Assembly: GCF_039566955.1 (NCBI RefSeq)
Contig: NZ_CP154796.1
Coordinates: 3,162,001-3,226,000 of the forward strand
Length of the DNA stretch: 64,000 nt
DNA from: Micromonospora sp. DSM 45708
Lineage (GTDB): Bacteria; Actinomycetota; Actinomycetes; Mycobacteriales; Micromonosporaceae
Direction of reading: 5' to 3'
The notes beneath the pieces are model-generated. The model did not search any database. It worked only from the letters and a program-made list of their open reading frames with translations, and was not told the origin of the DNA. This document shows positions 5,102 to 64,000 of this stretch, piece by piece; the first letter of the stretch is position 1, and each line of letters begins with the position of its first letter. Position numbers and translations under genes: made by a program.

Positions 5102-8100
5102 TCACAGCCCCCGCTCCGCGAGCCATCCGTCGACGGTGGCGCCGAGTTCCGGGCCACGTTCGCCGACCATGGTGAAGTGGTCGCCGGCCGCGTCCCGCGT
5201 CTCGTGCGGGTACGGCCACACCGACCGCCACCCGCCGGGTTCCCCGGTCCACTCCCCCAACGGCTCGCCGGCGCGTACGAGCAGCGTCGGCGCGGCCATC
5301 GGCGCGGGGTTCCAGTCGAGGAACAGCGGCAGGTAGCCGGCCCACGCGGTGGCCCGGTGGTCGTCCATCGGGGTGTACGCGCTGTCCCGCTCGACCATCC
5401 CGTCGAGCAGCTGCGAGGTCCAGCCGCCGAGCACCTCGCTGCCGGGCGGGTAGGTGTCCATCAGCACCACCGCGGCCGGGGCGCGGCCCTGCCGCTCCAG
5501 CTCGGCGGCGAGCAGGTTGGCCACCATGGCGCCGCCGGAGTGGCCGGCCAGCACGAAGCCGCCGGGTCCGACCGTCCGCAGCACGGTGTCCACGTGCACC
5601 CGCAGCAGCGCGTCGAGGTCGGCGGGCAACTCCTCGCCGACGCCGAACCCGGGGTTGGGCAGCGCCCACACGTCACGCCGGCCGCGCAGCCCGGCGGCGA
5701 CGCGGGCGTACTCGTGCGCGCCGGAGAGCAGCGACATGGTGCAGCAGCAGACCACCGGCGTGGCCGGCCCGTCGGCCAGCCGCATGACGCCGGCCGGCCG
5801 GGTGAGGTCCTCCGGGCCGGTGAAGCTGGGCCGGAACTGGGCCAGCTTCACCAGCAGCTCGGCGTAGCCGGCCGCGTCGGCGCGCGCCTTGGGCTGCCGG
5901 AACAGCCCGCCGAGCAGGCCGCCCGCGCCGTCCGGCGTCGCCGCGTCGGCGGGCGCGTCGGCGGCCTGCCCGCCGAGGATCGCGCCGAGCAGGTGCCCGG
6001 CCAGCGCGACCGGGGTGGGGTGGTCGAAGAGCAGGGTGGCGGACAGCTCGGCCCCGGTCTCCTGGCGCAGCGCGTCACGCAGCTCCAGCGCGGTGAGCGA
6101 GTCGAAGCCCAGCTCCAGGAAGTCCCGGTCCTCCTCGACCGCGCCCGGACCGGCGTGCCCGAGAACGGTGGCGGCCTGTGCCCGGACCAGGTCCAGCAGG
6201 ATCCGCTGCCGGTCCCCGGTGGGCACGGCGGCCAGCCGGTCCCGCAGCGCGGTCGCCGGGTCGGAGCCGCCCCCGGTGGCCGGGCCGGCCGCGTCGGGCA
6301 GGGCCGCGTCGGGCACGCCGCGCAGCAGCGGGGCCGGGCGGACCGCGGTGAACGCGGGCACGAACGCCGGCCAGTCGACATCCGCGACGGCGACCTCGTC
6401 GCCGCCACCGGCGACGGCCCGGTCCAGCGCGTCGAGGGCCACGCCGGGGTCCAGCGGGCGGATGCCCCGGCGGCGCAACTGCTCCGGGTCGGTGGCCTCG
6501 CCGTGCCACGGCGCCCACGCCAGCACGGTGGCCGGTCGGCCGGCGGCGCGGCGGCGGGCGGCGAGGGCGGCCAGGCCGGCGCCGGTCGCGGCGGTGACCG
6601 CGGCGCCGCCGCTGCCCCAGGTGGCGGCCGTGGAGACGAAGATCAGGAACTGGTCGACCGGGTGGTCGGCGCAGACGGCGTCGAGCCGGGCCACCGCGGC
6701 CAGGTGCGCGCCGACCGTGTCGGCCAACCGGTCCGGGTCGGCCGCCGCGACCGGCTCGCCGGCCCCGCCGGCGTCGGCCACGTGCAGCACGGTACGCACC
6801 GGCGTGCCGGCCGCGGCCAGTCGCGCCAACGCGGCGGACAGCGCGTCCGGACCGGCCACGGTGGTCACCTCGAGGCCGTGCGCCGTGGTCAGGTCGACGT
6901 CGCCCACGGTCTGCCCGCCCCCGTCCACCGTCGTCCGCCCGGTGTCGTCGCCGGTCGGGTCGTCGTCGGTGAAGGCCGGCGGGCCGGCCAGGAGCAGGTG
7001 GGTCGCGCCCGCCTCGGCGAGCCGGCGCAGCAGGTGCGGGCGGCGGACCGGGGCGTCGCCGTGCACCAGCACCGCGCCGTCCGGCCGCCACGGCCGGTCG
7101 ACGCCGGCCGGCGCGCGTTCCAACCGGCGGGCGCGCAGGCCACCGGCGCGGATCGCGAGCTGGTCCTCGACGCCGTTCCCGGCCACCACGCGGGCGAGCC
7201 GGGCGGCGTCCGGGCCGGCCGGTTCGGCGGGCAGGTCCAGCAGGCCGCCCCAGAGCCGGGGGTGTTCCAACGCCAGCACCCGGCCCAGGCCCCAGAGGCT
7301 GGCGACCGCCGGGTCGGGCGCCGGGTCGTCGGCGTCGACGGCGACCGCGCCCCGGGTGACGCACCACAGCGGCGCGGTGACCCCGGCGTCGGTAAGCGCC
7401 CGCACCAGCGCGACGGTGCCGGCGAGGACGTGCGCGCCGCCGGTGGCCGTCGCTCCGGCCGCGCCCGTTCCCCGCCCCGGTCCGGCCGCCGGCGCTCCGC
7501 TGTCCGCCGACGCGTGGACGGCGGCGACGGCGGGCAGCAGCGAGATCACCCGGACCGGGGTGACCGTGTCGAGGCGGTCGCGCAGCGTGGCGACCGGGTC
7601 GACGCCGGGCGGCGCCGGTACGGGCACCGGGTCCAGGCCCTCGGCGCGTACCGCGTCGGTCACGGCGTCGAGCAGGCCGCCGGGTAGGCCGACGACCAGG
7701 CACGGGCCGGTGGGCGCGGCGCCGGTGGGCGGGTCGACCGGGGTCCAGCCGGTCCGGTAGCGCAGTCCGTCCAGGGTGGCCGCCCGGCGGCGGCGGTCCC
7801 GGTAGCCGGTCAGCGCCGGCAGCAGGTCACCGAGCGGGCCGGCCGCGTCGTCGTCGAGGCCGAGCAGGTCGGCGAGCGCGGCCGGGTCGCCGCCCTCGGC
7901 GGTGGACCAGAACTCGCCGTCGGCCGGGTCGGCGGGGCGCGGGGCCAGGTCGAGCCGGATCGGGTCGGGCCAGAACCGCTCGTGCTGGAACGCGTACGTG
8001 GGCAGGTCGACCCGGGTGGCGTCGGTGCCGGCGAACAGCGCGGGCCAGCGTACGCCGGCACCGCGCAGGTCCACGGCGGCGAGCGCGGCGAGCAGGCCGG

Positions 8101-10693: not shown

Positions 10694-10718
10694 CGGGCCC
10701 TCCCTGCGGCCGGCCGGG

Positions 10719-13700
10719 TCACGAGTCGGATCCTTCGAGCGCCATCCGGACCAGTCCGGCGACGTCGAGGTCGTGGATCTCGGCCGCCGGCACGTCCGGG
10801 GCCGGGTCGGCGGCCGGCGCGGCGGTGTCGCGGCCGAGGCGCAGCAGCTCGTCGAGCAGTCCGGCCTGGCGCAGCCGGTCCAGCGGGATCGCCGCGAGCA
10901 CCCGCCGCACCGTCTCCTCGTCGGCGCCGCCGGCCGGCTCGTCGCCGCCGGGGAACAGCTCGTCGTCGAGGTACGCGGCCAGCCCGGCCGGGGTCGGGTA
11001 GTCGAACACCACGGTGGTGGGCAGTTCGCGCCCGGTCGCGGCGGTGAGCAGGTTGCGCAGCTCCACCGCGGTCAGCGAGTCGAACCCGAGGTCGAGGAAG
11101 CCCCGTTCCGGCTCGACCGCGTCGACCGAGGGGTGGCCGAGCACCTTCGCCGCGTCGGTGCGTACCAGGTCCAGCAGCGCGTCCCGGCGGTCGTCGGCGG
11201 TCAGCGCGCGCAGCTCGGCGAGCCGGTCCCGGCCGTCCGGCCCGGCCGCTGCGACCGGCTCGGCGGCAGCGGCGGCGAGCGCCCGCACGGCCGGCAGGTC
11301 GGCCAGCAGCGGGCTGGGCCGCAGCGCGGTGAACAGCGGGTGGAACGTGGCCCAGTCGACGTCGGCGACGGTGACGCAGGTGTCGCCGGCGGCGAGCGCG
11401 TGCCGCAGCCCGGCCATCGCCGGTTCGGGCGGCAGCACCCGCAGGCCGCGTCGGCGCAACTGCTCCGGCGCGTCGTCGTCGAACATGCCGGACTCGGTCC
11501 ACGGCCCCCAGGCCACCGACGTGGCCGGCAGCCCGCGGTCCCGTCGCCGCTCGGCGAGCGCGTCCAGTGCGGCGTTGCCGGCCGCGTACCCGCCCTGCCC
11601 GCCGCTGCCCCAGGTGGCGGCGATGGAGGAGAAGAGCACGAACGCGTCCAGCTCGACGCCGTCGAGCAGCTCGTCGAGCAGCTCCGCGCCGGCCAGTTTC
11701 GGCCCGATGACGTACGCCAGGTCCTCCAGCGTGGTCTCGGCCAGCGGCACCACCTCGCTGACGCCGGCGGCGTGCACCACCGCGCGCAGCGGTGGCCCGT
11801 CGGAGCGCAGGTCGGCGAGCAGCGCGGCCATGGCGGTCCGGTCGGCGGCGTCGGCGCGGGCGACGCGGCAGTCGACGCCGGACGCGGTCAGCTCGGCCAG
11901 CAGGTCCGTCGCACCCGGCGTGTCGACGCCACGCCGGCTGGTCAGCACGATCCGTTCGGCGCCGGCGTCGGCCGCCCAGCGGGCCACGTGCCCGCCGAGC
12001 GCGCCGGTGCCGCCGGTGATCAGGACCGTGCCGCGCGGCTGCCACGGCGGGCGTTCACCGTCGGTGGCGGCGGGGGCGAGCCGCCGGGCGTACGTCCCGT
12101 CGCCGCGTACCGCGAGCTGGTCCTCCGTGGTGGTGGTCAGCAGCGCGGCGAGTCGGCGGACGGTGTCGTCGTCCACGGTGGCGGGCAGGTCGACCAGGCC
12201 GGCCCAGCGGGCGGGCTGTTCCAGCGCGGCGACGCGGCCGAGGCCCCACAGCGCCGCCTGCCGGGGACTGGGCGGGGCGTCGCCGACGCCGACCGCGCCG
12301 CGGGTGGCGCACCAGAGCCGGGCCGGCGCGTCCAGGTCGGTGAGTGTCTGGAGCAGTCCGACGGTGGCGGCCAGGCCGCGCGGCAGGGTCGGGTGCTCGG
12401 CGTGCGGCGTCTCGTCCAGTCCGAGCAGGGACAGGATGCGGGCCGGCCCGTCGGCGGTGGCGGCGGCGACCAGGTCGGTCAGCCGGGTGGCCAGTTCGTC
12501 GGCGTCGGCGGTGGTGTCCACCGGCGCGGTGGTGGCCGCCGGGCCGAGCGCGCCGGCCAGCGCGACCAGGCCCGGTTCGGCGGCCCGGTCGGCGGGCAGC
12601 AGCACCAGCCAGCGGCCCGGACCGTCCGGCGCGGGCGCGGTGGTGGCGTCGACCGGTTCCCAGTGCACCCGGTAGCGGCTGCCGTCCACCACTGACCGTT
12701 CCCGGCCGCGTCGCCGCCACGCCGACAGGGCCGGCAGCACCGCGTCGAACGGCTGGTCCGGGGCCACGTCCAGCTCGGTGAGCAGGCCGTCCAGGTCCTC
12801 CGCCTCGACGGCCGCCCAGAAGCGGCGTTCCACGGCGGTGTCCTCGGCGGGCGGCGCGGTCAGCCAGGCCGGCGGCTGCGGCCAGTAGCGCTGCCTGTCG
12901 AACACGTGGGTGGGCAGGTCGGCCGGTTGCGGGTCGGCGTCGGCGTAGAGCGCGGGCCAGTCCACGCCCACGCCGTGCACGTGCAGCGCGGCGACCGCGC
13001 GCAGCAGGGTGAGCGGTTCCGGCCGGTCCCGGCGCAGCGTGGGCAGCACCGGCGGGACCGGCCCGTGGGCGGCCAGCACGCCCTGGGCCGGCGCGGTGAG
13101 CACCGCGTCCGGGCCGACCTCGAGGTACGCGGTGCAGCCGTGCTCGCGCAGCGCGGTGAGCGCGTCGGCGAAGCGGACGGTGTCGCGGGCGTGCCGGGCC
13201 CAGTAGCCGGGCGCGCCGATGGTCGCCGCGTCGACCGGCGCGCCGGTGACGGTGGAGATCAGCGGCACGGTCGGCGGGTGGTGCGGCAGCCGGGCGGCGA
13301 GCGCGGCCAACTCGTCGAGCACCGGTTCCATCAGCGGGCTGTGGAACGCGTGGCTGACGGTGAGCCGTCGGGTGCGTACTCCCCGGGCGGTCCAGTCGGC
13401 GGCGGCCCGGTCGACGGCGTCGGCGGGGCCGGCGACCACGACGGCGGCGGGGCCGTTGACCGCGGCGACGGCGAGCCCGTCGGTAAGCGTGGCGCGGACG
13501 TCGTCCTCGCTCGCGGCGACCGCGAGCATGGCGCCGCCGGTGGGCAGCGCCTGCATGAGCCGGCCCCGGGTGGCGACCAGTTCGGCGGCGTCGGCCAGGG
13601 TGAGCACGCCGGCGGCGTGGGCGGCGGCGAACTCGCCGATGGAGTGCCCGGCCACCGCGTCCGGGCGCAGGCCCCACGCGGTGAGCAGCCGGAACAGCGC

Positions 13701-16700
13701 CACCTCGACGGCGAACAGCGCCGGCTGGGTGAACTCGGTGCGGTCCAGCAGCGCCGCGGTGTCGGTGCCGGGGTCGGCGTCGAGCAGCGGGCGCAACGGC
13801 CGGGACAGGTGCGGGTCGAGCGCGGCGCACGCCTCGGTCAGCGCGGCGGCGAACACCGGGTACGCGGCGGCCAGCTCGCGGCCCATGCCGGGGCGTTGCG
13901 CGCCCTGCCCGGAGAACAGGTAGGCCACCCGGGGCCGGCCGGTCACCGCGCCGGTGACCAGCGCGGGCGAGTCGTCGCCGGTGGCGAGCGCGCGGAGCCC
14001 GGCGCGCAGCGCCCGCCGGTCGGTGGCGAGCACGACCGCGCGGTGGTCCAGCGCGGCCCGGGACACCGCCGAGGACCAGCCGACGTCGACAAGCGGGGGC
14101 GCGGTCGGACCGGCGAGCCGGTCGGCCCACGGCGTGGCCTGGGCGGCCAGCGATCCGGCGGTACGGGCGGACAGCAGCACCGGCACCACCGGCGGCTCCG
14201 CCGGTTCCCCGGTCGGCACCGGCGGCTCGGGGGCCTGCTCCAGGATGGTGTGGGCGTTGGTGCCGCTGATCCCGAACGAGGAGACGGCGGCGCGGCGCGG
14301 CCGGCCGGTCAGCGGCCAGGGCCGCCCCTCGGTCAGCAGGTCCACCGAGCCGGTCGTCCAGTCCACCTGGTCGCTGGGCGCGTCGACGTGCAGGGTCGGC
14401 GGCAGGTAGCCGTGGCGCAGCGCGAGGATCATCTTGATCACGCCGGCGACGCCGGCGGCGGCCTGGGTGTGGCCGATGTTCGACTTGATCGAGCCGAGCA
14501 GCAGCGGCCGGTCCGCCGGCCGGCCCTGCCCGTACGTGGCGAGCAGCGCCTGCGCCTCGATCGGGTCGCCGAGCCGGGTGCCGGTGCCGTGCGCCTCGAC
14601 CGCGTCCACGTCGCCGGCGTCGAGCCGGGCGTTGGCCAGCGCCGCGCGGATGACCCGCTGCTGGGCCGGCCCGTTCGGGGCGGTGAGCCCGTTGGACGCG
14701 CCGTCCTGGTTGACCGCGCTGCCCCGGACCACGGCGAGCACCGGGTGGCCGTTGCGGCGGGCGTCGGAGAGCCGCTCGACGAGCAGCACGCCGACGCCCT
14801 CCCCCCAGCTCGTGCCGTCGGCGCCGGCCGCGAACGCCTTGACCCGGCTGTCCGGGGACAGTCCGCGTTGCCGGCTGAAGCCGACGAACACGCCGGGGGT
14901 GGACATCACGGTGACGCCGGCGACCAGCGCCAGGGAACACTCGGCGGCGCGCAGCGCCTGGCCGGCCCAGTGCAGCGCGACCAGCGACGAGGAGCAGGCG
15001 GTGTCGACGGACACGGCCGGCCCTTCCAGTCCGAGCGTGTACGACACCCGCCCGGAGAGCACGCTGCCGGCGTTGCCGGTCATCAGGTGCCCCTCGGCGC
15101 CCTCGGCGGTGAGCATGAGGTTGCGGTAGTCCTGGTAGTTGGTGCCGACGAAGACGCCGGTGGGGGTGCCGCGCAGCGTCCGCGGGTCGATGCCGGCGCG
15201 TTCGATCGCCTCCCACGAGGTCTCCAGCAGCAGCCGCTGCTGCGGGTCCATGGCGAGCGCCTCGCGGGGGCTGATGCCGAAGAAGCCGGGGTCGAAGTCG
15301 GCGACGTCGGGCAGGAAGCCGCCCTGGCGGGCGTAGCTGGTGCCCTCGACGGCGGGGTCGGTGTCGAAGAGCCGGTCGAGGTCCCAGCCCCGGTCGGTGG
15401 GGAAGTCACCGATGGCGTCGCCGCCGGCGGCGAGCAGTTGCCACAGCCGTTCCGGGTCGTCCGCGCCGCCGGGGAAGCGGCAGCTCATCGCCACCACGGC
15501 CAGCGGCTCGTCGGGGGTGGCCACGGCGGCCGGCCCGTCGACCGGCGTGCCGGCGCCGGTGAGCAGCTCGTCGAGGTGCCCGGCGAGCACCGCCGGGTTC
15601 GGGTAGTCGAACGCGAGCGTGGCGGGCAGCCGCAGCTCGGTGGCGGTGGCGAGCAGGTTGCGCAGGTCCACCGCGGTCAGCGAGTCGAGGCCGAGGTCGC
15701 GGAACGGGCGGGTGACGGGCACGTCGGCGGCGGCGCCGTAGCCGAGCGCGGTGGCGGCGCACTGGCGGACCAGGTCGCGCAGCGTCTCGGTGCGTTCGGC
15801 GGCGGTGCGGCCGGCGAGCTGCCGGGCCAGCGCCGAGCCGGGCTGGTCGGCCGGTTCGGGCGCGGTCGGCGTCTCCGGGGGGCGCAGCGCGTCCCGGACC
15901 TCGGGCAGGTCGCCGAGCAGCGGGCTGGGCCGGACCAGCGCGAACGCGGGCGCGAAGCGGCCCCAGTCGACGTCGGCGACGACCACTGTGGGTTCGTCGC
16001 GGCCCAGCGCCCTTGCCAGGGCCGCGACGGCGAGGTCCGGGTCCATGGCGACCATGCCGCCGCGGCGCAGCCGCTGCTGGGCGCGTTCGTTGTCGGCGGG
16101 CAGGCCGGCGCCGGCCCAGGCGCCCCAGGCCACGGAGAGCGCCGGCAGCCCGTCGGCGCGACGTCGGTGGGCGAGCGCGTCGAGGTGGGCGTTCGCCGCG
16201 CCGTACGCGCCCTGGCCGGCGTTGCCGGTGGTGCCGGCGACGGAGGAGAAGAGCACGAACGCGTCCAACTCGTGGTCGCGGGTGAGCGCGTCGAGGTGGT
16301 CGGCGGCGGCGCTCTTGGGCGCGGCGACGGTGTGCAGGCGGGCGGGGGTGACGGTGTCCACGATGCCGTCGTCGAGCACGGCGGCGGTGTGCAGCACGGC
16401 CCGCAGCGGCGCGTCGTCGGGCAGGTCGGCGAGCAGCGCGGCGAGCTGGTCGCGGTCGGTGACGTCGCAGCGGGCCACGGTGACGCGTACCCCGAGGTCG
16501 GTCAGCTCGGCGGCGAGGTCGCCGGCGCCGGGGGCGTCGGGGCCGCGACGGCTGGCCAGTAGCACGTGCGCGGCGCCGGCGCGGGCGGCCCAGCGGGCCA
16601 GGTGCCCGCCGAGGCCGCCGGTGCCGCCGGTGATCAGCACGGTGTCGCGCAGTCGGATCGTGTCGTCGGCGAGGTCGGTGGTCCGGGTGAGTCGGCGGGC

Positions 16701-25171: not shown

Positions 25172-36115
<10,944 letters not shown>

Positions 36116-36159: not shown

Positions 36160-50229
<14,070 letters not shown>

Positions 50230-50239
50230 CGTGGTCCTA

Positions 50240-53200: not shown

Positions 53201-56200
53201 TCCAGTCCAGGTGGAACACGGCGGTACGGCGCAGCGCGGCGGTGCCGTCGTCCTGACCGGCGGCGACCGGGCGGAACGTCAGCGACTCGACCGTGGCGAC
53301 CGGGCGGCCGGCCGGGTCGGCGAGCGTGACGGCGACCGTGTCCGGGCCGAGCGAGCGGATCGTCACCCGCAGCCGGGTGGCGCCGTGGGCGTGCAGGGTG
53401 ACCGCGCGGAGCGTGAACGGCAGCCAGCCGCTGCCGGCCTCGGCCGGCGTGCCGAGCAGCGCGGTGGGGCCGGTGGCGTGCAGGGCGGCGTCGAACAGCG
53501 CCGGGTGCAGGCCGAAGCGGGACGCGTCGGCGGCCTGCGCCTCGGGCAGCGCCACCTCGGCGTACACCTCGTCGCCGTGGCGCCAGATCCGGTGCAGGCA
53601 GCGGAACGCGGGGCCGTAGGTGAGGCCGGCCTCGGCGGTGCGGGCGTACCAGGCGTCCAGGTCCGCGTCGACCTCGACGGCGCCGGCCGGCGGCCACTCC
53701 CCCGGCCCGGGTACCGGCTCGGAGAGCTGCGGCAGCAGCAGACCCTCGGCGTGCCGGGTCCAGTCGGCGTCGCCGTCGTCGGCGGGCCGGGAGTGCAGCG
53801 TGACGGCCCGTTCGCCGGTGTCGCCGGGCGCGCCGACGCGCACCTGCACCTGGACCGCGCCGGTGGCGGGCAGCACGAGTGGGCTGATCAGCGTGAGGTC
53901 GCCGACCTGGCCGGCGTCGACCTCGTCGCCGGCCCGGATCACCATGTCGGCGAGCGCGGTGCCGGGGACGACGACGGTCCGGCCGACGACGTGGTCGGCG
54001 AGCCACGGGTGGGTACGCGTGGACAGCCGCCCGGTGAGCACCACGGTCCGGTCGTCGGCGACCGGCAGCGCGGCGCTGAGCAGTGGGTGCGCGGTGTCCT
54101 GGAGGCCGGCGGAGGCGACGTCGTGCGCGGGTCGGACGGTGGTGGTGAGCCAGTACCGCTTCCGGTCGAACGCGTACGTGGGCAGGTCGACGGTGGTCGC
54201 GGGGGTGAGTACGGCGGTCAGGTCGACGGGCAGGCCGATGGTGTGCGCGGTGGCCAGGCTGGTCAGGAGTCGGGTCGGATCGTCGTCACCGCGGCGCAGC
54301 GTGGACAGGGTGTGCCCCGCCGTGTCGGCGTCGTCGAGGATCGCGGTCACCGGCATCGTGAGCACCGGATGCGCCGACACGTCCACGAAGGTGCGATGCC
54401 CAGCCCCGAGCGCGGTCCGCACCGCCTGCTCGAACCGCACCGGCTGCCGCAGGTTCGTGAACCAGTACCCCCCGTCCATGCTCTCCGGGTCAGCCCAGTC
54501 CCCGGTCACCGTCGACACCATCCGAACCCGACCCGCCTGCGGCGACAACCCCGCCAGGTCGGTGAGCATCCGATCGCGGATCCGCTCCACGGCCGGGTTG
54601 TGGGAGGCGTAGTTGAACGGCACCGGCTTCGCCCGCACCCCCTCGACCGCCCACCGCTCGCGCAACTCCGCCAGCGTGTCCGGCGGACCGGACACCACCA
54701 CATGCCCCGGACCATTGAGCACCGCCACCACCGTGCCGGGCACACCCTCGATCCGCGCCTGCACCTCATCGGCCGGCAGATCCACCGCCAACATCCCGCC
54801 GGAACCCGCCAGGGTGGCCAGCGACCGCGCCCGCAGGATGACGGCCTTCGCCGCGTCATCGAGTGACAGCACCCCGGCCACACACGCCGCGGCCATCTCA
54901 CCCTGCGAATGACCGATCACCAACGACGGCTCAACCCCGGCAGCCCGCCACACCTCCGCCAAACACACACCGACCGCGAACAGGACCGGCTGCAACACCT
55001 CCACCCGATCGAGCCAGGCGTCGTCGTCACCGGTCAACACCGACACGAGATCCACGTCCAGGAACGGCGCGAACGCCCGCTGACACTCGGCAAGCCGACC
55101 ATCGAACGGCGCGCACCGACCCACCAGACCGGCCGCCATCCGCACCGACTGACCACCCTGACCCGGAAACACGAACACCGGACCCGCACCGTGCTCGACG
55201 ACCGCACCCGACACCACGTTTCCCGTCGGGGTGCCCGACGCGAGCGCGTCCAGCGCCGTCAGCAGCTCGTCGCCGGTGGTGCCGACCACTGCGGCGCGGT
55301 GCTCGAACGTCGAGCGGGTGGTGGCGAGGGACCAGGCCACCGCAGCCGGGTCGAGCTGCCCGCCAGCGCGCAGGTGGGCGGCGAGCCGGGCGGCCTGCGC
55401 GGCGACGCCGGCCCGGGTACGGGCCGACACCGGCCACAGCCGGACGTCGGCGTCCACCAGGCCCGGGGCGGCGGGCGCCGGACGCGCGTCGGGCTCGTCG
55501 GCCTGTTCGATGACGACGTGGGCGTTGGTGCCGGAGATGCCGAACGACGACACCGCCGCCCGACGCGGCCGGTCCACCGCCGGCCACGCACACGCCTCGG
55601 TCACCAGCTCCACCGCGCCTGCCGACCAGTCGATGTGCGGCGACGGCGCGTCCACGTGCAGCGTCGGCGGCACCACGCCGTGCCGCATCGCGAGGACCAT
55701 CTTGATGATCCCGGCGACGCCGGCGGCGGCCTGGGTGTGGCCGATGTTCGACTTGATCGACCCCAGCAGCAGCGGCGTCTCGCGGTCCTGCCCGTACGTG
55801 GCGAGCAGCGCCTGCGCCTCGATCGGGTCACCCAACGTGGTGCCCGTGCCGTGCGCCTCCACCACGTCCACGTCCGACGTGGACAACCCGGCGTCCGCCA
55901 GGGCGGCCCGGATCACCCGCTGCTGCGACGGCCCGTTCGGCGCGGTCAGGCCGTTCGACGCGCCGTCCTGGTTGATCGCGCTGCCGCGCACCACGGCGAG
56001 CACCGGATGACCGTTGCGGCGGGCCTCGGAGAGCCGTTCCAGCAGCAGCACGCCGACGCCCTCGCCCCAGCCGGTGCCGTCGGCGGCGGCGGCGAACGCC
56101 TTTACCCGGCCGTCGGCGGCCAGTCCACGTTGGCGGGAGAACTCCACGAACAGCCCGGGTGTCGCCATCACGGTCACGCCGCCGGTGAGTGCGAGGTCGC

Positions 56201-59200
56201 ACTCGCCGCGTCGCAGCGCCTGCACGGCCAGGTGGAACGCGACGAGCGACGACGAGCAGCCGGTGTCCACGGACACCGCCGGCCCTTCCAGCCCCAGCGC
56301 GTACGACACCCGGCCGGACACCACGCTTGCCGCGTTGTCGGTGCCGCCGAAGCTCTCGTCCGGGGCGACCAGCACCAACGCGCGGTAGTCCTGCCCGTTG
56401 GTGCCGGCGAACACGCCGGTCCGGGAGCCGCGCAGCGATTCCGGCACCACGCCGGCCCGCTCGATCGCCTCCCAGGACGCCTCCAGCAGCAGCCGCTGCT
56501 GCGGGTCCATGGCGGCGGCCTCGCGCGGCGAGATGCCGAAGAACACCGGGTCGAAGTGGCCGGCGTCGGCCACGAACGCGCCCTGGTCGGTGTAGGTGGT
56601 GCCGGCCGACGCCGCCGCCGGGTCGACCAGCGTGTCCGGGTCCCAGCCCCGGTCGGTGGGGAAGTCGCCGACCGTGTCCACGCCGTCGGCGACGATCCGC
56701 CACAACGCGTCCGGGTCGCTGACGCCGCCGGGGAAGCGGCACGCCATCGCCACCACGGCCACCGGCTCCTCACCGGGGGCGACGGTGGCGACGGTGGTCC
56801 CGACGGGCGCCGGGTCGACGCCGAGCAGCGTGGTCAGCAGCAGCCGGGCCAGCGCCACCGGCGTCGGGTGGTCGAAGACCAGCGTGGTGGGCAGCGGCTG
56901 GCCGGTGGCGGCGACCAGCCGGTTGCGCAGTTCCACCGCGGTCAGCGAGTCGAAGCCGAGGTCCCGGAACGCGGTGGTGGCCGGGATCGCGGCGGCGTCG
57001 GCGTGGCCGAGCACGTCGGCGGCGAGTTCCCGGACCAGGTCGGCGAGCGTCTCCTCGCGGCGGGCCGGGTCCAGGCCGGCGAGCCGGGCCCGCAGCGTCG
57101 CCGCCGGTCCGTCGTCGGCGTCGCCGTCGGCCGGCGCGCCGCCGTCGAGCGCGGCCTTCGCCTCCGGTACGCCCTCCAGCAGCGGCCGACGTCGGGCCGA
57201 GGCGTACGCGGGGGCGAACCGGGACCAGTCCACGTCGGCGACCGTGAGCGTCACGTCGTCGTGGTCGAGGGCCTGCCGCAGCGCGCTCATCGCGACGTCG
57301 GCGTCCATCGGCGGCACGCCTCGGCGGCGCAGCGCCCGGTCGGAGTCGGCCACGTGCATGCCGCCCTCGCCCCATGAGCCCCAGGCGATGGCGGTGCCGG
57401 CCAGCCCGTCGGCGCGTCGCCGCTGCGCCAGCGTGTCCAGGTAGGCGTTGCCGGCCGCGTACCCGGCCTGCCCGGCGCTGCCCCAGGTCGCGGCGATGGA
57501 CGAGTAGACGACGAACGCGTCCAGGTCGTCGCCGGCGAGCAGGTCGTGCAGGTGGGCCGCGCCGGCCACCTTGCCGGCGGTCACCTCGGCCAGTTCGGCG
57601 GCGGTGACGGCGTCCAGCGGGGTGGTCTGCGGCAGGCCGGCGGTGTGCAGGACGGCGCGGATCGGCGGGCCGTCCGCGCGGAGCCGGTCGAGCAGCGCGG
57701 CGACGGCGGCCCGGTCGGCGAGGTCGCAGGCGGCGACCGTGACGCGGGCGCCCCGCTCACGCAGCTCGGCGGCCAGCTCGGTGGCCCCGGGGGCGTCCGG
57801 GCCGCGCCGGCTGACCAGCGCCACGTGTGCGGCGCCGGCGTCGGCGAGCCAGCGGGCGGCGCGCGCGCCGAGCCCGCCGGTGCCGCCGGTGACCAGCACG
57901 GTTCCGGTGGGCGTGAAGCGGCGTGCCGGGGGGCGGTCGCCGATCGGCGCGCGGACCAGGCGGCGGCGCAGGACGCCGGGGCCGCGCACGGCGAGCTGGT
58001 CCTCGCCGTCCGGCGCGGCGAGCAGCGCGGCGAGCCGGCCGGCGGCCCGCGCGTCGGGTTCGGCGGGCAGGTCGACGAGGCCGCCCCAGCGGTGCGGGGC
58101 CTCCACGCCGACCACCCGGCCCAGCCCCCAGACCGCGCCCTGGGCCGGGTCGGTCCCCCGGTCGTACGCGGCGGCGGCCACCGCGTTGCGGGTCACCAGC
58201 CACAGCGGCGCGGCCAGGCCGGTGTCGCCGAGCGCCTGGGTGAGCGCGAGCGTGGCGGCCAGGCCGGGCAGGAGCGGGTCCGGGTCGGTGGCGGGCGCCC
58301 AGGAGAGCAGCGAGACCACCCCGCCGACGTCGACGCGGCCGGTGCCGGCCTCGGTGAGGTCGGCATCCGTGGCGTCGGTGAGGGCGGCGGCGAGCGCGGC
58401 CCGGTCGGCGTCGGGTGCCACGGCCAACGGGCGCACGTCGGCGCCGGCGGCGGTGAGCGCGGCGCGGACGGCGGCCACCGCCGGGTCGTCGTCGAGGCCG
58501 GTCGGCACCGCCAGCAGCCAGGTGCCGCCGAGCGCGGCGGTGGCAGGTTCGGGGGCGGCCTGCCACTCGACCCGGTAGCGCCAGCCGTCGAGTTGGTCGT
58601 GCTGCTGCTGCCGGCGTCGCCAGCCGGCGAGCACGGGCAGCAGCGTCCGCAGCGACCCGGCCGCCTCGGCGTCGTCGACGGCCAGGGTGTCGCGCAGCGC
58701 GTCCAGGTCGGCGCGGTCGACGGCGTCCCAGAACCGGTGGTCGAGCAGGCCGACGCCGGTGGCCGGGGCGGCCGGCTCGCCGGCGGGCACCCAGTAGTGC
58801 TGCCGCTGGAACGGGTAGGTGGGCAGGTCGACCAGGCGGCCCGGCCGGCCGGCGAACGCGGGCCGCCAGTCCACCGGCGTGCCGGCGATGTGCAGCGCCG
58901 CGACGGACCGGTGGAACCGGTCCAGGCCGCCCTCGTCCCGGCGCAGGCTGCCGGTCACGGTGGCCGCGCCCGGTCCGGCGGCGGCCTCGGCGCTGTCCTG
59001 CACCGCCATGGTGAGCACCGGGTGCGCGCTGACCTCGACGAACGTGCGGTAGCCGGCCTCGACGAGACGGCGGACCGCGTCGTCGAAGTGAACCGTCCGG
59101 CGCAGGTTGCGGTACCAGTAGTCGGCGTCGAGTTCCGCGGTGTCGAGCCAGTCGCCGGTCACGGTGGAGCGGAACCGGACCGTGCCGCTGCGGGGCGTCA

Positions 59201-61550
59201 CGTCGGCGAGCCGGGCCAGGAGCTGCTCGCGCAGCGGCTCGACGTGCGCCGAGTGGGAGGCGTAGTCCACCGGCACCCGGCGCACCCGGACGTCCCGGGA
59301 CTCGTAGTGGGCGACCAGCTCGTCCAGCGCGGCGACGTCGCCGGAGACCACCACCGCGGTCGGGCCGTTGACCGCGGCGAGGGAGATCCGCCCGTCCCAG
59401 CGGGCGATCGTCTCGCCCGCCTCCTCGGCGGTGGTCGCCACGGACACCATGCCGCCGTCGCCGGCCAGCTCCGCGATGACCCGGCTGCGCAGCGCCACCA
59501 CGGCGGCAGCGTCCTCCAGGGTCAACCCGCCCGCGACGTGGGCGGCGGCGATCTCGCCCTGCGAGTGGCCGAGCACCGCGGACGGCTGCACGCCGTAGGA
59601 CTGCCACAGCGCGGCGAGGGACACGCCGACCGCGAACAGCGCCGGCTGCACCACGTCCACCCGGTCCAGCGACGGCGCGTCCGGCGCGCCGCGCAGCACG
59701 TCGAGCAGTGACCAGTCGACGTACGGGCGCAGCGCCTCGGCGCAGGCGGTCAGTTTCGCCGCGAACACCGGGGCGGTGTCGAGCAGCCCGGCGGCCATGC
59801 CGACCCACTGCGAGCCCTGGCCGGGAAAGACGAACGCGACCTCGCCGGGCTGTCCGGCGGCGCCGGTGACCAGCGGCGGGGCGGACCGGTCGTCGGCGAG
59901 CGCGTCCAGCGCGGCGGTCAGCTCGTCCCGGTCGGCGGCGAGCACCACGGCGCGGTGCTCCAGCGGCGAGCGGGAGACCACCGACGTCCAGGCCACGTCG
60001 GCGGGCGCGAGGTCGGGATCGGTGGCGAGGCGTCGGGACCAGCGTTCGGCCTGCTGGCGCAGCGCGGTACGGGTGCGGCCGGTGAGCAGCACCGGTCCGG
60101 TCCGGTCGGCCGGCATGGCCGGGGCCGCCGGTTCCTCGGCGGGTTGTTCGAGGACGATGTGGGTGTTGGTGCCGCTCATGCCGAACGAGGAGACGGCGGC
60201 CCGGCGGGGCCGGTCCACCGCCGGCCACGGCGTCGGCTCGGTGACCAGCCGGACCGCGCCGGCGGTCCAGTCGACGTGCGGGGTGGGCTCGTCGACGTGC
60301 AGCGTGGCCGGGACGGTCCCGTGCCGCATGGCGTAGATCATCTTGATGATCCCGGCGATGCCGGCGGCGGCCTGGGCGTGCCCGAGGTTCGACTTGACGG
60401 AGCCGAGCAGCAGCGGCCGGTCGGCGGGCCGGTCCTGCCCGTAGGTGGCCAGCAGCGCCTGTGCCTCGATCGGGTCGCCCAGCGTGGTGCCGGTGCCGTG
60501 CGCCTCCACCACGTCGACCAGGTCGGGGGTGAGCTTCGCGCCGGCCAGCGCGGCCCGGATGACGCGCTGCTGGGACGGGCCGTTCGGGGCGGTGAGGCCG
60601 TTCGACGCGCCGTCCTGGTTGACCGCCGAGCTGCGGATGACGGCCAGCACCGGGTGGCCGTTGCGGCGGGCGTCGCTGAGCCGCTCCAGCAGCAGCACGC
60701 CGACCCCCTCGGACCAGCCGGTGCCGTCGGCGGCGGCGGCGAACGACTTGCACCGCCCGTCGGCGGCGAGCCCGCGCTGCCGGGAGAACTCCACGAACGG
60801 TCCGGGCGTGGCCATCACGGTGGCGCCGCCGGCCACCGCCAGCCCGCACTCGCGTTCCCGCAGTGCCTGGCAGGCGAGGTGGACCGCGACCGACGAGGAC
60901 GAGCAGGCGGTGTCCACGGTGATCGCCGGGCCCTCCAGCCCGAACGTGTAAGCGAGCCGGCCGGAGACCACGCTGGCGGCGGTGCCGGTGAGCACGTACC
61001 CCTCGGCGTTCGGCGCGCGGTGCAGCACGGCGGCGTAGTCCTGGCCGGACGTGCCGACGAAGACACCGGTGCGGCTGCCGCGCAGCGACAGCGGGGCCAG
61101 GCCGGCGCGTTCGAACAGCTCCCAGGTGACCTCCAGCAGCAGCCGCTGCTGCGGGTCCATGGCGACCGCCTCGCGGGGCGAGACGCCGAACAGCGCGGCG
61201 TCGAACTGCCCGGCGTCGGCCAGGAACCCGCCGGCCGCGGTGTAGGACGTGCCGGCGTTCTCCGGGTCGGGGTGGTGCAGCAGGTCGAGGTTCCAGCCCC
61301 GGTCGGCGGGGAAGTCGCCGATGGCGTCGCCGCCGTCCGCGACGAACCGCCACAGCTCCTCCGGCGAGCTGATCCCGCCGGGGTACCGGCAGCTCATCGC
61401 CACCACCGCCACCGGCTCGGACTCCTCGGCGGTGACCTCGCGCAGCCGCTGGCGGGTCTGGTGCAGCTCGGTGACGACCCGGGTCAGATACTCCCGGAGC
61501 CGTGCCTCGTCCCCGGCCGGTCCGGTGGTGCCCACTGCCGTGTCCGCCAT
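50277..61550 (-). CDS. Type I PKS A: two modules, KS-AT-KR-ACP and KS-AT-DH-ER-KR-ACP
   Basis: The protein has 3757 residues from ATG 61550 (MADTAVGTTG), with AGGGAG 11 bases upstream and 34 bases after the PKS Z stop. The frame is open to 61664, but that extension overlaps PKS Z and is not conserved. Module A1 (residues ~45-1580) is methylmalonyl with an A1-type KR; module A2 (~1595-3675) is methylmalonyl with the only complete DH-ER-KR loop in the window. They should set C22 methyl and C23 hydroxyl, then C20 methyl and C21 methylene. The AT of A2 belongs to a different lineage (YASHN). The C-terminal docking region (~3680-3757) ends ENIFDLIDRELETS. Confidence 0.95.
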   Translation of the reverse strand: MADTAVGTTGPAGDEARLREYLTRVVTELHQTRQRLREVTAEESEPVAVVAMSCRYPGGISSPEELWRFVADGGDAIGDFPADRGWNLDLLHHPDPENAGTSYTAAGGFLADAGQFDAALFGVSPREAVAMDPQQRLLLEVTWELFERAGLAPLSLRGSRTGVFVGTSGQDYAAVLHRAPNAEGYVLTGTAASVVSGRLAYTFGLEGPAITVDTACSSSSVAVHLACQALRERECGLAVAGGATVMATPGPFVEFSRQRGLAADGRCKSFAAAADGTGWSEGVGVLLLERLSDARRNGHPVLAVIRSSAVNQDGASNGLTAPNGPSQQRVIRAALAGAKLTPDLVDVVEAHGTGTTLGDPIEAQALLATYGQDRPADRPLLLGSVKSNLGHAQAAAGIAGIIKMIYAMRHGTVPATLHVDEPTPHVDWTAGAVRLVTEPTPWPAVDRPRRAAVSSFGMSGTNTHIVLEQPAEEPAAPAMPADRTGPVLLTGRTRTALRQQAERWSRRLATDPDLAPADVAWTSVVSRSPLEHRAVVLAADRDELTAALDALADDRSAPPLVTGAAGQPGEVAFVFPGQGSQWVGMAAGLLDTAPVFAAKLTACAEALRPYVDWSLLDVLRGAPDAPSLDRVDVVQPALFAVGVSLAALWQSYGVQPSAVLGHSQGEIAAAHVAGGLTLEDAAAVVALRSRVIAELAGDGGMVSVATTAEEAGETIARWDGRISLAAVNGPTAVVVSGDVAALDELVAHYESRDVRVRRVPVDYASHSAHVEPLREQLLARLADVTPRSGTVRFRSTVTGDWLDTAELDADYWYRNLRRTVHFDDAVRRLVEAGYRTFVEVSAHPVLTMAVQDSAEAAAGPGAATVTGSLRRDEGGLDRFHRSVAALHIAGTPVDWRPAFAGRPGRLVDLPTYPFQRQHYWVPAGEPAAPATGVGLLDHRFWDAVDRADLDALRDTLAVDDAEAAGSLRTLLPVLAGWRRRQQQHDQLDGWRYRVEWQAAPEPATAALGGTWLLAVPTGLDDDPAVAAVRAALTAAGADVRPLAVAPDADRAALAAALTDATDADLTEAGTGRVDVGGVVSLLSWAPATDPDPLLPGLAATLALTQALGDTGLAAPLWLVTRNAVAAAAYDRGTDPAQGAVWGLGRVVGVEAPHRWGGLVDLPAEPDARAAGRLAALLAAPDGEDQLAVRGPGVLRRRLVRAPIGDRPPARRFTPTGTVLVTGGTGGLGARAARWLADAGAAHVALVSRRGPDAPGATELAAELRERGARVTVAACDLADRAAVAALLDRLRADGPPIRAVLHTAGLPQTTPLDAVTAAELAEVTAGKVAGAAHLHDLLAGDDLDAFVVYSSIAATWGSAGQAGYAAGNAYLDTLAQRRRADGLAGTAIAWGSWGEGGMHVADSDRALRRRGVPPMDADVAMSALRQALDHDDVTLTVADVDWSRFAPAYASARRRPLLEGVPEAKAALDGGAPADGDADDGPAATLRARLAGLDPARREETLADLVRELAADVLGHADAAAIPATTAFRDLGFDSLTAVELRNRLVAATGQPLPTTLVFDHPTPVALARLLLTTLLGVDPAPVGTTVATVAPGEEPVAVVAMACRFPGGVSDPDALWRIVADGVDTVGDFPTDRGWDPDTLVDPAAASAGTTYTDQGAFVADAGHFDPVFFGISPREAAAMDPQQRLLLEASWEAIERAGVVPESLRGSRTGVFAGTNGQDYRALVLVAPDESFGGTDNAASVVSGRVSYALGLEGPAVSVDTGCSSSLVAFHLAVQALRRGECDLALTGGVTVMATPGLFVEFSRQRGLAADGRVKAFAAAADGTGWGEGVGVLLLERLSEARRNGHPVLAVVRGSAINQDGASNGLTAPNGPSQQRVIRAALADAGLSTSDVDVVEAHGTGTTLGDPIEAQALLATYGQDRETPLLLGSIKSNIGHTQAAAGVAGIIKMVLAMRHGVVPPTLHVDAPSPHIDWSAGAVELVTEACAWPAVDRPRRAAVSSFGISGTNAHVVIEQADEPDARPAPAAPGLVDADVRLWPVSARTRAGVAAQAARLAAHLRAGGQLDPAAVAWSLATTRSTFEHRAAVVGTTGDELLTALDALASGTPTGNVVSGAVVEHGAGPVFVFPGQGGQSVRMAAGLVGRCAPFDGRLAECQRAFAPFLDVDLVSVLTGDDDAWLDRVEVLQPVLFAVGVCLAEVWRAAGVEPSLVIGHSQGEMAAACVAGVLSLDDAAKAVILRARSLATLAGSGGMLAVDLPADEVQARIEGVPGTVVAVLNGPGHVVVSGPPDTLAELRERWAVEGVRAKPVPFNYASHNPAVERIRDRMLTDLAGLSPQAGRVRMVSTVTGDWADPESMDGGYWFTNLRQPVRFEQAVRTALGAGHRTFVDVSAHPVLTMPVTAILDDADTAGHTLSTLRRGDDDPTRLLTSLATAHTIGLPVDLTAVLTPATTVDLPTYAFDRKRYWLTTTVRPAHDVASAGLQDTAHPLLSAALPVADDRTVVLTGRLSTRTHPWLADHVVGRTVVVPGTALADMVIRAGDEVDAGQVGDLTLISPLVLPATGAVQVQVRVGAPGDTGERAVTLHSRPADDGDADWTRHAEGLLLPQLSEPVPGPGEWPPAGAVEVDADLDAWYARTAEAGLTYGPAFRCLHRIWRHGDEVYAEVALPEAQAADASRFGLHPALFDAALHATGPTALLGTPAEAGSGWLPFTLRAVTLHAHGATRLRVTIRSLGPDTVAVTLADPAGRPVATVESLTFRPVAAGQDDGTAALRRTAVFHLDWTPLPATEPPAPTRWALLTGDRTDPTGAGLADPVGGDQVGTPGGDPAGLAGALTAAGHRVTVHPDPAALLAAVDGDDDVPEIVVDLRGGPDPDPERVDADAHSAARDALALVRQWLAEPRLEATRLVLATRGAVAAAPGEAPRDPARAAVWGLVRSAQSEHPGRFTLLDLDDAAASLGAVPAALASGEPQLALRDGAAWTPRLVRARDTGVLTPPDDRQPWRLDVTEKGTLENLALLPVPVEAGAVPAGHVAVEMRASGLNFRDVVLALGMVPGQEVLGSEGAGVVREVGPGVTDLKPGDRVMGIFAGSFATVAVTDHRMVTRIPDGWSYAEAAGVPVVFLTAWYGLVELGRLTAGESVLVHAATGGVGMAAVQIARHLGAEVYGTASPGKWPVLRATGLDDAHIASSRSLDFVDEFRARRAGRGVDVVLNSLAGAYVDASLRMLDSGGRFVEMGKTDPRDPARVAADHPGVSYQGFDLMAAGPAVVGRMLAELMALFAAGTLRPLPRRTWDVRRAPEAFRFLSQARHVGKLTLTIPPTPRLDGTVLVSGATGTLGALLCRHLVAAHGARHLLLVSRRGPDAEGADELLADLKASGAEVQLVAADLADPDAVADVLSLVDARHPLRAVVHTAGVVDDATVEKLTPERLAAVLRPKVDAAWNLHRATRHHELTAFVLYSAAAGLMGGPGQGNYAAGNAFLDALAEHRRASGLPAVSLVWGLWATASGITGHLDAVDRRRLERSGLVALTDHEALALFDATWRSERPTLMPAKISTQGTGGPVHPLLTALVRAGTRRGAVTEAAGGPAYAETLRGLSGEKRERALRDLVLAHVAVVLGVGDPAGVEPDRAFRELGFDSLTAVELRNRLGSATGLRLPATLVFDNPTPAALAAHLATRIAVPDGAADASGGVGRDLDRLEAALAGLDPDDEAFRGITERLHGLLDRLTARETTADDGDLESATTENIFDLIDRELETS
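51590..52550 (-). other. Enoylreductase domain of module A2
   Basis: A medium-chain dehydrogenase-type ER runs from DVTEKGTLENL to about TLTIPPTPRLD. It has the glycine-rich loop HAATGGVGMAA and GSEGAGVV. GMVPG carries Val where, as I recall, ERs giving 2S-methyl branches carry Tyr, so a 2R methyl is tentatively predicted. Confidence 0.88.
54360..55240 (-). other. Third-lineage AT core with distinct codon style in module A2
   Basis: From roughly the AT N-terminus (FVFPGQGGQSVRMAAG) to [10 protein letters not shown] the coding strand is unusually G- and T-rich at third positions, so the plus strand reads conspicuously C/A-rich. The protein differs from both other methylmalonyl ATs (VEVLQ, GHSQGEM, YASHN). 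It looks like an AT acquired separately. Confidence 0.6.
56800..61417 (-). other. Module A1: KS-AT(methylmalonyl)-KR(A1)-ACP
   Basis: KS has DTACSSSSVA (~215). AT has RVDVVQPALFAVGVSLAALW, GHSQGE (~661) and YASHS (~764). KR has GGTGGLG (~1222) and [20 protein letters not shown]: no LDD (GLPQTTPL instead), Trp eight before the Tyr, no His at -3, hence A1. ACP is GFDSL (~1533). Confidence 0.88.
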
Positions 61551-61584
61551 GGTCGATTCCGCTCCCTGGTGTGCCACGCGTGCC

Positions 61585-64000
61585 TCAGGACAACCCGAGA
61601 TCGCGGTCGAGAAGGTCGAAGAGCTCCTGGTTGCTGGCCGTCCGCAGCCGGTCGGCCACCTCACCGCCCGGTTCCGCCGGCTCGTCGGCGCCGAGCCGTT
61701 CCAGCAGCCGGTGCAGCCGCATGGTGATCCGCACCCGGCCGAGGTCGTCGCGCTCCCGCAGCGTGAGCGCCTCCTCCAGCCGGTCCAGCTCCTCCACGGT
61801 GGGCAGTTCCCGCTCCGAGGACTCGTCGACGAGCTGGGCGCGCAGGTGCTCGGCGAGGGCCTGCGGGGTGGGGTAGTCGAACACCACCGAGCTGGCCGGC
61901 GCGAGGCCGGTGAGCCGGGCCAGCCGGCCGCGCAGCTCCACCGCGGTCAGCGAGTCGAACCCGAGGTCCCGGAACGGCCGGTCGGCCTCCAGCGCGTACG
62001 GGCTGTCGTGGCCGATCACCTCGGCGGCGGCGGCGCGGATCAGGTCGACAAGCAGCCGGTTCTGCTCGGCGACGGTCAGGTCGGCGAGGCGCTTGCGCAG
62101 TTCCGCGAGCGTCTCCGTGCCGCCGGTGTCGGCCGGGTCGGTGCCGGCGGGCGGGGCCGCCACCTCGGGCAGGTCGCCGATCAGCGGCCGGGGCCGGGCG
62201 GCGGCGAAGACCGGGGCGAAGCGCGCCCAGTCCACGTCGGCGACGGTGAGCACCGGGTCGTCGCCGGAGATCGCGGCGCGCAGCGCGGCCATCGCCGGTT
62301 CCCGGTCGAGCAGCGTGACGCCGCGGCGGCTCATCGCGGCGGCGTGGTCGGCGTCGACCATGCCACCGCCGGCCCACGGCCCCCAGTTCACCGACACCAC
62401 CCGCGCCGGTCCGGCCGGACGGGACTGCGCCCAGGCGTCCAGGAACGCGTTGGCGGCGGCGTACGCGCCGTGGTCGCCGACGCCCCACGCGGCGGCGATG
62501 GAGGAGAAGTAGACGACCAGTTCCAGCGCCGCCGGGTCGAGCAGCTCGTCGAGGTGGCGGGCGCCGGCGGTCTTGCCGGAGACCACGTCGGCCAGTTCGT
62601 CGGTGGTGACCGCGCGCAGCGGGTTGAGGCGGCCGACGCCGGCGGCGTGCACCACCGCGCGGACCGTCTCGCCGTCGGCGCGCAGCCGGTCGAGGAGCGC
62701 GGCGACGGCGGCGCGGTCGGCCAGGTCGCAGGCGAGCACCCGGGCCTGCGCGCCGAGGTCGGCCAGCTCGGCCACCGTCTCGGCGACGCCGGGCGCGTCC
62801 GGGCCGCGCCGGCTGACCAGGATCACCTTGCGGGCGCCGTGCCGGGCGAACCAGCCGGCGGCGTACCGGCCGATCGCGCCGGTGCCGCCGGTGATGAGCA
62901 CGGTGTCCGGGCAGGTCCAGGTCGGGGCGTCCGGGCGGGCCGGGCGGGGCGCCCGGGCCAGCCGGCGCAGGTGCACGCCGGCCGGGCGGACCGCGAGCTG
63001 GTCCTCGCCGTCGGTGTTCGTCAGCGCCCGCAGCAGGTGCTCCCCGGTCGCGGCGTCCAGGTCGGCCGGCAGGTCGAGCAGGCCACCGGCGTGCGCCGGG
63101 TGTTCCAGCGCGGTGACCAGGCCGAGCCCCCAGGTGGTGGCCGCGTCCGGTCGGGTGAGCGGGTCGCCGGGGCCGGTGCTGACGGCCTGCCGGGTGAGCA
63201 GCCACAGCGGCCCGGTCGGCGCGACGTCGGTGACGGCCTGGACCAGCGCGAGGTTGCCGGTGAGACCGGCCGGCACGCCCGGGTACGCCGGATGGGGTCG
63301 CTCGTCCAGCGCCAGCAGGGAGACGATCCGGCCGGGCCCGTCCGGCAGGTCACCGGCCAGGTCGGCGCGGGTCACGGTGGCCGGGTCGACGGTGAGCGTG
63401 CGCGCCGTCCCGCCGTGCGCGCCGATCAGCGCGGCGATCCGCTCCGCCGGGTCGGCCGCCGCGTCGGCGGGCACGACGAGCAGCCAGTCCCCGGTGGCGG
63501 GGCCGGCGGTGAGCTGCCGGCGGGGCCAGGTGATCCGGTAGCGCCAGCCGTCGGCGACCGCGTCGGCGCGACGCCGCTGGTGCCAGTCGGCGAGCGTGGG
63601 GAGCTGGTCGCGCAGCGGCCGGTCCGGGTCGACGCCGAACCGGGTCGCCAGGGCGTCGCCGTCACCGGCGGTGACGACCTGCCAGAACGCGTCGTCGACC
63701 GGGTCGGCGGCGGCCGGCGCGGCGACGCCGACCAGCTCGCCGTCGGCGACCGGCCAGAAGCGCTGGTGGCGGAACGGGTACGTGGGCAGCGCGGCGGGGT
63801 CGGCGTCGGGCAGCAGCGCCGCCCAGTCCACCGGCGTGCCGTGGCAGTGCAGCCGGGCCAGCGCGCCGAGCAGCGTGGCGACCTCGTCCCGGCCGGGGCG
63901 TTGCACGCCGGTGACCAGCGGTCCGCCGTCCGGCAGCAGGTCGCCGGCGAGCGCGGTGAGCACCGTGTCCGGGCCCACCTCCAGCAGCGTGCCGACGCCG
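61585..64000 (-). CDS. Type I PKS Z, C-terminal end: AT(end)-KR(A2)-ACP-docking (5' part outside window)
   Basis: The frame is open to the window edge, so the GTG at 63978 is internal; 804 residues are visible. They start in the last AT strands (LLEVGPDTVLTAL) and the post-AT linker PTYPFRHQRFW. A KR follows (GGTGAIG, then FSSIAAAWGVGDHGAYAAAN): no LDD, Trp eight before the Tyr and His three before it, the A2 fingerprint. ACP is GFDSL near base 61950. The docking tail ends NQELFDLLDRDLGLS. AT specificity cannot be read because the active-site parts are missing. As the last module before PKS A, it should set an L-type hydroxyl at C25. Any loading module and earlier extension modules lie beyond the right edge. 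Confidence 0.93.
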   Translation of the reverse strand, partial: GVGTLLEVGPDTVLTALAGDLLPDGGPLVTGVQRPGRDEVATLLGALARLHCHGTPVDWAALLPDADPAALPTYPFRHQRFWPVADGELVGVAAPAAADPVDDAFWQVVTAGDGDALATRFGVDPDRPLRDQLPTLADWHQRRRADAVADGWRYRITWPRRQLTAGPATGDWLLVVPADAAADPAERIAALIGAHGGTARTLTVDPATVTRADLAGDLPDGPGRIVSLLALDERPHPAYPGVPAGLTGNLALVQAVTDVAPTGPLWLLTRQAVSTGPGDPLTRPDAATTWGLGLVTALEHPAHAGGLLDLPADLDAATGEHLLRALTNTDGEDQLAVRPAGVHLRRLARAPRPARPDAPTWTCPDTVLITGGTGAIGRYAAGWFARHGARKVILVSRRGPDAPGVAETVAELADLGAQARVLACDLADRAAVAALLDRLRADGETVRAVVHAAGVGRLNPLRAVTTDELADVVSGKTAGARHLDELLDPAALELVVYFSSIAAAWGVGDHGAYAAANAFLDAWAQSRPAGPARVVSVNWGPWAGGGMVDADHAAAMSRRGVTLLDREPAMAALRAAISGDDPVLTVADVDWARFAPVFAAARPRPLIGDLPEVAAPPAGTDPADTGGTETLAELRKRLADLTVAEQNRLLVDLIRAAAAEVIGHDSPYALEADRPFRDLGFDSLTAVELRGRLARLTGLAPASSVVFDYPTPQALAEHLRAQLVDESSERELPTVEELDRLEEALTLRERDDLGRVRITMRLHRLLERLGADEPAEPGGEVADRLRTASNQELFDLLDRDLGLS

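Follow-up and report, generated by a model that had tools for sequence, protein, structure and literature searches.

The 64,000-nucleotide stretch of DNA analyzed here (the window; G000:C1:3162001-3226000, in a genome forming a single contig of 7,016,307 bases) is, with high confidence, the downstream end of a quinolidomicin-type cis-AT modular PKS. It carries modules 23–33, the thioesterase (TE), an ABC exporter, a glycosyltransferase and a LuxR regulator of an assembly line that should make a quinolidomicin congener, and the AT of its module 23 was most likely exchanged for a copy of AT26. This assignment places an apparently unknown scaffold, which the preliminary description had not recognized, in an established class of giant macrolides with published orthologues. 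The cluster type itself is thus already known, and the product of this strain is not to be equated with quinolidomicin itself.

Domains were annotated with profiles derived from the cluster itself, AT and KR motifs were then read, and gene frames were called by codon usage; when the upstream open reading frames were instead chosen by their length, several proved false and had no Pfam hits, and this approach was rejected. Six PKS genes (A8–A13) lie on the minus strand, and a seventh (A7) is cut by the window end, so that its final portion is inside. They hold eleven complete modules (23–33 in quinolidomicin numbering) and the KR and ACP of module 22. Conservation in the following feature list refers to ten clusters compared in full: our own and those of M. 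okii and genomes G087, G092, G141, G033, G024, G031, G008 and G077.

1..1700, plus strand: large LuxR-family regulator, 3' part; kept in 10 of 10 clusters.
1791..3146, minus strand: glycosyltransferase, UDPGT/EryCIII-like; matches the macrolide glycosyltransferase family weakly (61 bits against a cut-off of 260).
3159..3995, minus strand: ABC transporter permease, matching DrrB weakly (40 bits against a cut-off of 223); kept in 10 of 10 clusters.
3992..5017, minus strand: ABC transporter ATPase, DrrA-like (271 bits; curated cut-off 312); kept in 10 of 10 clusters.
5102..10693, minus strand: A13 (qnmA13 orthologue), module 33, KS-AT(malonyl)-degenerate KR-ACP-TE.
5105..5926, minus strand: thioesterase of DEBS/PikAIV type, active site AGHSGG.
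6500..7084, minus strand: KR33, degenerate, HSTG in place of KSYN, Rossmann motif lost.
10719..20123, minus strand: A12, modules 31 (methylmalonyl, KR) and 32 (malonyl, KR).
20168..25138, minus strand: A11, module 30 (methylmalonyl, KR).
25172..36115, minus strand: A10, modules 28 (malonyl, DH-KR) and 29 (methylmalonyl, DH-KR); predicted C10–C13 diene.
36160..50229, minus strand: A9, modules 25 (malonyl, KR), 26 (methylmalonyl, KR) and 27 (methylmalonyl, KR).
36940..37482, minus strand: KR27, KAYN.
41563..42105, minus strand: KR26, KAYN (Ser to Ala).
43069..44034, minus strand: AT26, methylmalonyl; most likely source of the swapped AT23.
50277..61550, minus strand: A8, modules 23 (methylmalonyl, KR) and 24 (methylmalonyl, DH-ER-KR).
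51036..51581, minus strand: KR24, KAYN; our line has the DH24 and ER24 motifs.
58878..59840, minus strand: AT23, methylmalonyl; predicted to set the C22 methyl.
61585..64000, minus strand: 3' end of the A7 gene, covering the module 22 KR and ACP; the gene runs to window-equivalent position 76320.

Motifs of AT, KR, DH and ER domains report substrate choice and activity, as is generally known. The active-site Cys is kept in all eleven KSs of the window (DTGCSS in KS24) and the Ser of GxDS in all eleven ACPs, confirming that the eleven complete modules described earlier are real. The methylmalonyl motif (GHSQG with YASH) was read in the ATs of modules 23, 24, 26, 27, 29, 30 and 31, and the malonyl motif (HAFH) in those of modules 25, 28, 32 and 33. 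With carbons numbered from the TE end of the line, module m (5 to 33) provides alpha carbon C(2(34-m)) and the beta carbon one higher. This arithmetic, applied to the AT motifs, reproduced the previously predicted methyls at C6, C8, C10, C14, C16, C20 and C22; the DH-KR sets of modules 28 and 29 and the DH-ER-KR set of module 24 returned the predicted C10=C11 and C12=C13 alkenes and the CH2 at C21. The Rossmann glycines of KR33 are gone and its KSYN reads HSTG; the domain is degenerate in nine of the compared clusters, and none could be located in M. okii. With KR33 degenerate or missing throughout the ten clusters, the C3 ketone already proposed is well supported: C3 should stay a ketone, and A13 should set C1–C2, keep the keto group and release the chain. 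The broader picture of a large, TE-released macrolide and its chain order was likewise supported.

The window is not most of the macrolide synthase, as had been thought, and covers 11 of 32 extension modules. KS matches run on past its end on the same strand to 3,337,971, adding 21 upstream of the eleven. The full line comprises 32 KSs and 32 extension modules on one strand, in 13 genes spanning 3,167,102-3,340,941 (~174 kb), with 2, 1, 3, 4, 6, 2, 3, 2, 3, 2, 1, 2 and 1 KSs per gene from A1 to A13. Two other large modular PKS loci are present in the same genome (G000:C1:1888171-1925524 and 3846686-3900313).

The table in PMC8698034 sets the quinolidomicin cluster (qnm, Micromonospora chalcea AK-AN57) beside two orthologues, TP-A0316 and M. 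okii; the AK-AN57 cluster is deposited as BGC0002520. The 13-gene module partition of our line is that of the TP-A0316 column, which likewise distributes 32 extension modules over 13 genes, and by the same table module 4 is missing in TP-A0316 and M. okii too. Orthology at the sequence level was found with the published M. okii member. The t1pks-2 cluster of M. okii TP-A0468 (NZ_BBZF01000012.1) shares the PKS gene order at 75–83% identity over aligned parts, the AT12 and AT23 types, and AHBA genes within the stretch in the same order. It differs in lacking KR33, in a degenerate AT21, in the glycosyltransferase, which was not found there, and in additional open reading frames in the A3–A4 and A5–A6 intervals. 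The M. okii assembly contains gaps (784 N over the stretch read).

Compared by the PMC8698034 table, AK-AN57 agrees with our line in the 13 PKS genes, the module order, the C-terminal TE, the ligase loading, and the AT and reduction pattern of modules 24–33. Five modules (4, 10, 12, 19 and 23) and the loading part, however, do not share the AK-AN57 domain set: our line has no module 4, and it has ER10, methylmalonyl AT12 and AT23 and an intact AT19. The loading part of our line also contains a KR-like stretch (96 bits), which is tabulated for TP-A0316 and not for AK-AN57. These differences from the AK-AN57 table indicate an orthologous congener line rather than the same product line. The case raised in the preliminary description, a characterized cluster with the same module order and another product, is therefore realized in part: the tabulated order is that of quinolidomicin, whereas AT23 and several other positions differ. 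Likeness extends to t1pks-8 of Micromonospora sp. AKA38, labelled quinolidomicin in PMC9967187, which by its table has 13 genes, 32 extension modules, the same domain order, ER10 and methylmalonyl AT23, with AT12 unassigned; in the available parts of that paper we found no remark that the AKA38 AT23 departs from qnm. From the missing module 4, ER10 and the methylmalonyl AT12 and AT23, the product should be a quinolidomicin congener whose side chain is shortened by two carbons, with a saturated C48–C49 bond and one additional methyl each at C44 and C22. Summed up, the missing module 4 (-C2H2), the two methyls (+2 CH2) and the ER10 reduction (+H2) predict an unchanged carbon count and four hydrogens more than the quinolidomicin A1 backbone, about +4.03 Da, provided that the remaining units and the tailoring are the same.

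The ten full clusters fall into three layouts. Layout i (our own, G087, G092, G141, G033 and M. okii) has no module 4, has ER10, and carries methylmalonyl AT12 and AT23. Layout ii (G024) is the same except for a malonyl AT23 and resembles the TP-A0316 column of PMC8698034. Layout iii (G031, G008 and G077) includes module 4, lacks ER10 and has the malonyl type at both AT12 and AT23; it resembles the AK-AN57 column, from which it differs in that AT21 is degenerate rather than methylmalonyl as tabulated there. A glycosyltransferase stands beside the ABC exporter in eight of the ten clusters, layout iii clusters G031 and G077 included, and was not found in the cluster stretches of M. okii and G008; it may serve in tailoring or in self-protection.

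Relatives of the terminal PKS gene are spread through the genus. The best segments are 88–94% identical in Micromonospora sp. RP3T, Micromonospora sp. NBS 11-29 and M. maritima, the M. maritima match covering part of the query only; M. okii (78%) and M. halophytica (69%) are more distant. The A13 C-terminus has a match of at least 65% identity, partial in some cases, in 27 of 160 genus genomes, our own counted, which agrees with the wide distribution of the quinolidomicin-type cluster stated in the available text of PMC8698034. A homologue search returned Micromonospora chalcea, M. maritima and others, with no qnm in the shortened names of the 120 of 996 matches listed. A plasmid search with the ABC transporter and glycosyltransferase stretch gave 13 records, the best covering only 19% of the query at 74% identity.

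The departure within the window concerns module 23. We consider it likely that only the AT of this module (~320 residues) was exchanged for a copy of AT26, so that one set of Micromonospora species would incorporate propionate in place of acetate and gain the C22 methyl; in part of this set, AT23 and AT26 would later have exchanged again. AT23 could be typed in 20 genomes, our own counted, as methylmalonyl in 7 and malonyl in 13. Between our module and those of the 13 malonyl-type genomes, KS23 is 87–89% and KR23 76–82% identical, and AT23 only 42–45%. In the tree, the six methylmalonyl AT23s of the full clusters and all ten AT26s form one clade of 16 tips with support 1.0, inside which branching is weak in part (one node at 0.44). 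AT23 and AT26 are 78–93% identical within a genome, in comparison with 48–57% between our AT23 and the other methylmalonyl ATs of the same line. The highest pairwise value, 93%, was found in G033 and suggests repeated exchange.

To locate the borders, module 23 of G033 was profiled in 50-residue windows, named here by their first residue as counted from the KS start; its AT23 domain begins at 528 and spans 320 residues. Identity to module 26 was 36–56% at windows 401–476 (the KS-AT linker), 76% at 501, 90–100% at 526–751, 80–88% at 776–826, 64% at 851 and 38% at 876, with conserved KS windows also reaching 96%. The orthologous G024 module gave the reverse profile, 24–58% at 501–826 and at least 72% just after. 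These shifts near the AT borders indicate an exchange close to AT-only, with the same assembly line as its likely source; most likely, the methylmalonyl AT23 would be a copy of the AT26 of the next gene.

We infer the direction of this change; of the two candidate ancestral types of AT23, malonyl occurs more often (13 of 20). The reverse polarity, in which methylmalonyl AT23 is older and was replaced by malonyl AT23 in the remaining 13 genomes, is an unlikely reading that still deserves weight, since the swap demonstrates an exchange and not its direction, and both AT23 types occur in many species. Against it, the methylmalonyl AT23s are nested within the AT26 clade and AT26 is methylmalonyl in 10 of 10 clusters, which makes AT26 the likelier source. 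A precedent for the preferred reading, the replacement of AT23 by a copy of AT26, is mycolactone D, for which the available text of PMC2569948 describes a natural AT change of propionate for acetate and attributes it to recombination within the same PKS genes. As here, the argued source is the line's own PKS genes; unlike here, genus and product are others, and in our case the likely donor and the borders come from a ten-cluster comparison. In the parts of the literature available to our search, no remark was found on the donor, borders or spread of the AT23 swap or on the C22-methyl prediction. Recurring in several related genomes, the AT23/AT26 exchange provides PKS engineering with a natural experiment, showing at which points an AT can be excised and substituted with KS, KR and ACP left in place. 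If correct, it defines a so far unremarked C22-methyl quinolidomicin family with field-tested AT exchange borders.

The hydroxyls earlier assigned to C15 and C17 are less certain than the other predicted positions, as KR27 and KR26 lack the catalytic Ser, a change that had been overlooked. Across the ten full clusters, KAYN was read in KR24 and KR27 of all ten and in KR26 of six, with KSYN in KR26 of the other four. It occurs in just 1 of 43 KRs from 28 chosen other-PKS loci, and this rarity, together with the counts in the ten clusters, favors the proposal that KR26 and KR27 are inactive and leave ketones, not alcohols, at C15 and C17. We regard that proposal as improbable. KR24 shows the same change in all ten clusters while sitting in a module with DH and ER motifs (HVVGRTVVVP, DAALH and LVHAATGGVG), from which Ala appears tolerated, and the lone outside KAYN domain also belongs to an ER module. 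Moreover, KR27 is the top-scoring KR of our line (257.8 bits), in contrast to the degenerate KR17 and KR33. From these motifs, C15 and C17 are likely, but not certain, to be alcohols.

KR26 carries the Ser-to-Ala change in all six clusters with methylmalonyl AT23 and in none of the four with malonyl AT23, a co-occurrence that may reflect shared ancestry. Upstream of the window, KR19 (A6, 3238359-3248693; window-equivalent 76359-86693) has KSHN, a Tyr-to-His change, in all ten clusters, with the DH19 motif intact. The changes in KR19, KR24, KR26 and KR27 make some predicted oxidation states uncertain, among them that of C31 (KR19). KR17 (module 17, A5) is degenerate in 10 of 10 clusters (TSQD), a loss predicted to give a C35 ketone. 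In none of the ten clusters does DH1 (module 1, A1) retain the catalytic His motif.

At the far end of the line, the N-terminus of A1 is a CoA-ligase-type loading domain (AMP-binding, 296 bits; AMP-binding_C, 65.5 bits), the sole loading ligase found. Beyond A1 lies an AHBA-type cassette encoding an AHBA synthase (633 bits to 1b9h), an AHBA-associated phosphatase that scores 330 bits, over its cut-off of 247, and a type II dehydroquinase. An aminoDHQ-synthase-like protein falls short of its cut-off, and the ROK kinase and shikimate-dehydrogenase-like proteins also encoded there are weak matches. The gap between A2 and A1 holds a methyltransferase, a type II TE and an FAD-oxygenase-like protein, the last judged by eye. 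According to the available text of PMC9054317, quinolidomicins are 60-membered and their structure was revised from a quinone OH to NH2; an aminoquinone fits an AHBA starter, and a literature search found no paper linking quinolidomicin with AHBA.

In the proposed route, AHBA would be loaded and activated by the A1 ligase, 32 extensions would build a C64 chain onto the starter, and the A13 TE would close a 60-membered lactone on the C59 hydroxyl made by KR5. The TE is homologous to the DEBS and Pik enzymes and has the Ser of GHSxG, the features of a macrolactone-forming TE. By module arithmetic a 60-membered ring means closure at C59, the carbon of KR5; module 5 carries a KR and lacks a DH in every one of the ten clusters, and KR5 shows no departure from KSYN. 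The published ring size and this arithmetic together make closure at C15–C25 unlikely, and with it the 16- to 26-membered rings offered in the preliminary description, which presuppose a hydroxyl encoded in the window.

A stand-alone 16- to 26-membered macrolide with its loading module just past base 64000 is scarcely credible: within the window the C15–C25 hydroxyls are the sole candidates for large-ring closure, but the strand carries 21 more KSs beyond it, A1 holds the one loading ligase that was found, and the same module array recurs in the ten clusters examined in full. Equally remote is an AHBA-primed macrolactam closed, as in ansamycins, on the aniline nitrogen rather than a hydroxyl, which the AHBA-type cassette would accommodate; chain release is by a cis DEBS-type TE, and no match to PF00797, the arylamine N-acetyltransferase family, to which RifF-type ansamycin amide synthases belong, occurs anywhere in the genome (a control search gave matches in 3 of 14 genomes). 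The published products are moreover macrolides with the amino group on the quinone, by the available text of PMC9054317.

Some AT positions outside the window vary among the clusters. The AT pattern was unmatched in modules 3 and 5–7 of G141, in module 3 of G092, and in module 9 of G008, which is without YASH. AT19 and AT21 of G031, G008 and G077, and AT21 of M. okii (L095), are degenerate, having lost the GHSxG Ser motif and the YASH-containing stretch while KS, KR and ACP are kept; AT21 of G077 retains GHSHG. The affected modules are AT-less modules within a cis-AT line. As the 60-membered ring seems to need them, another AT may load them.
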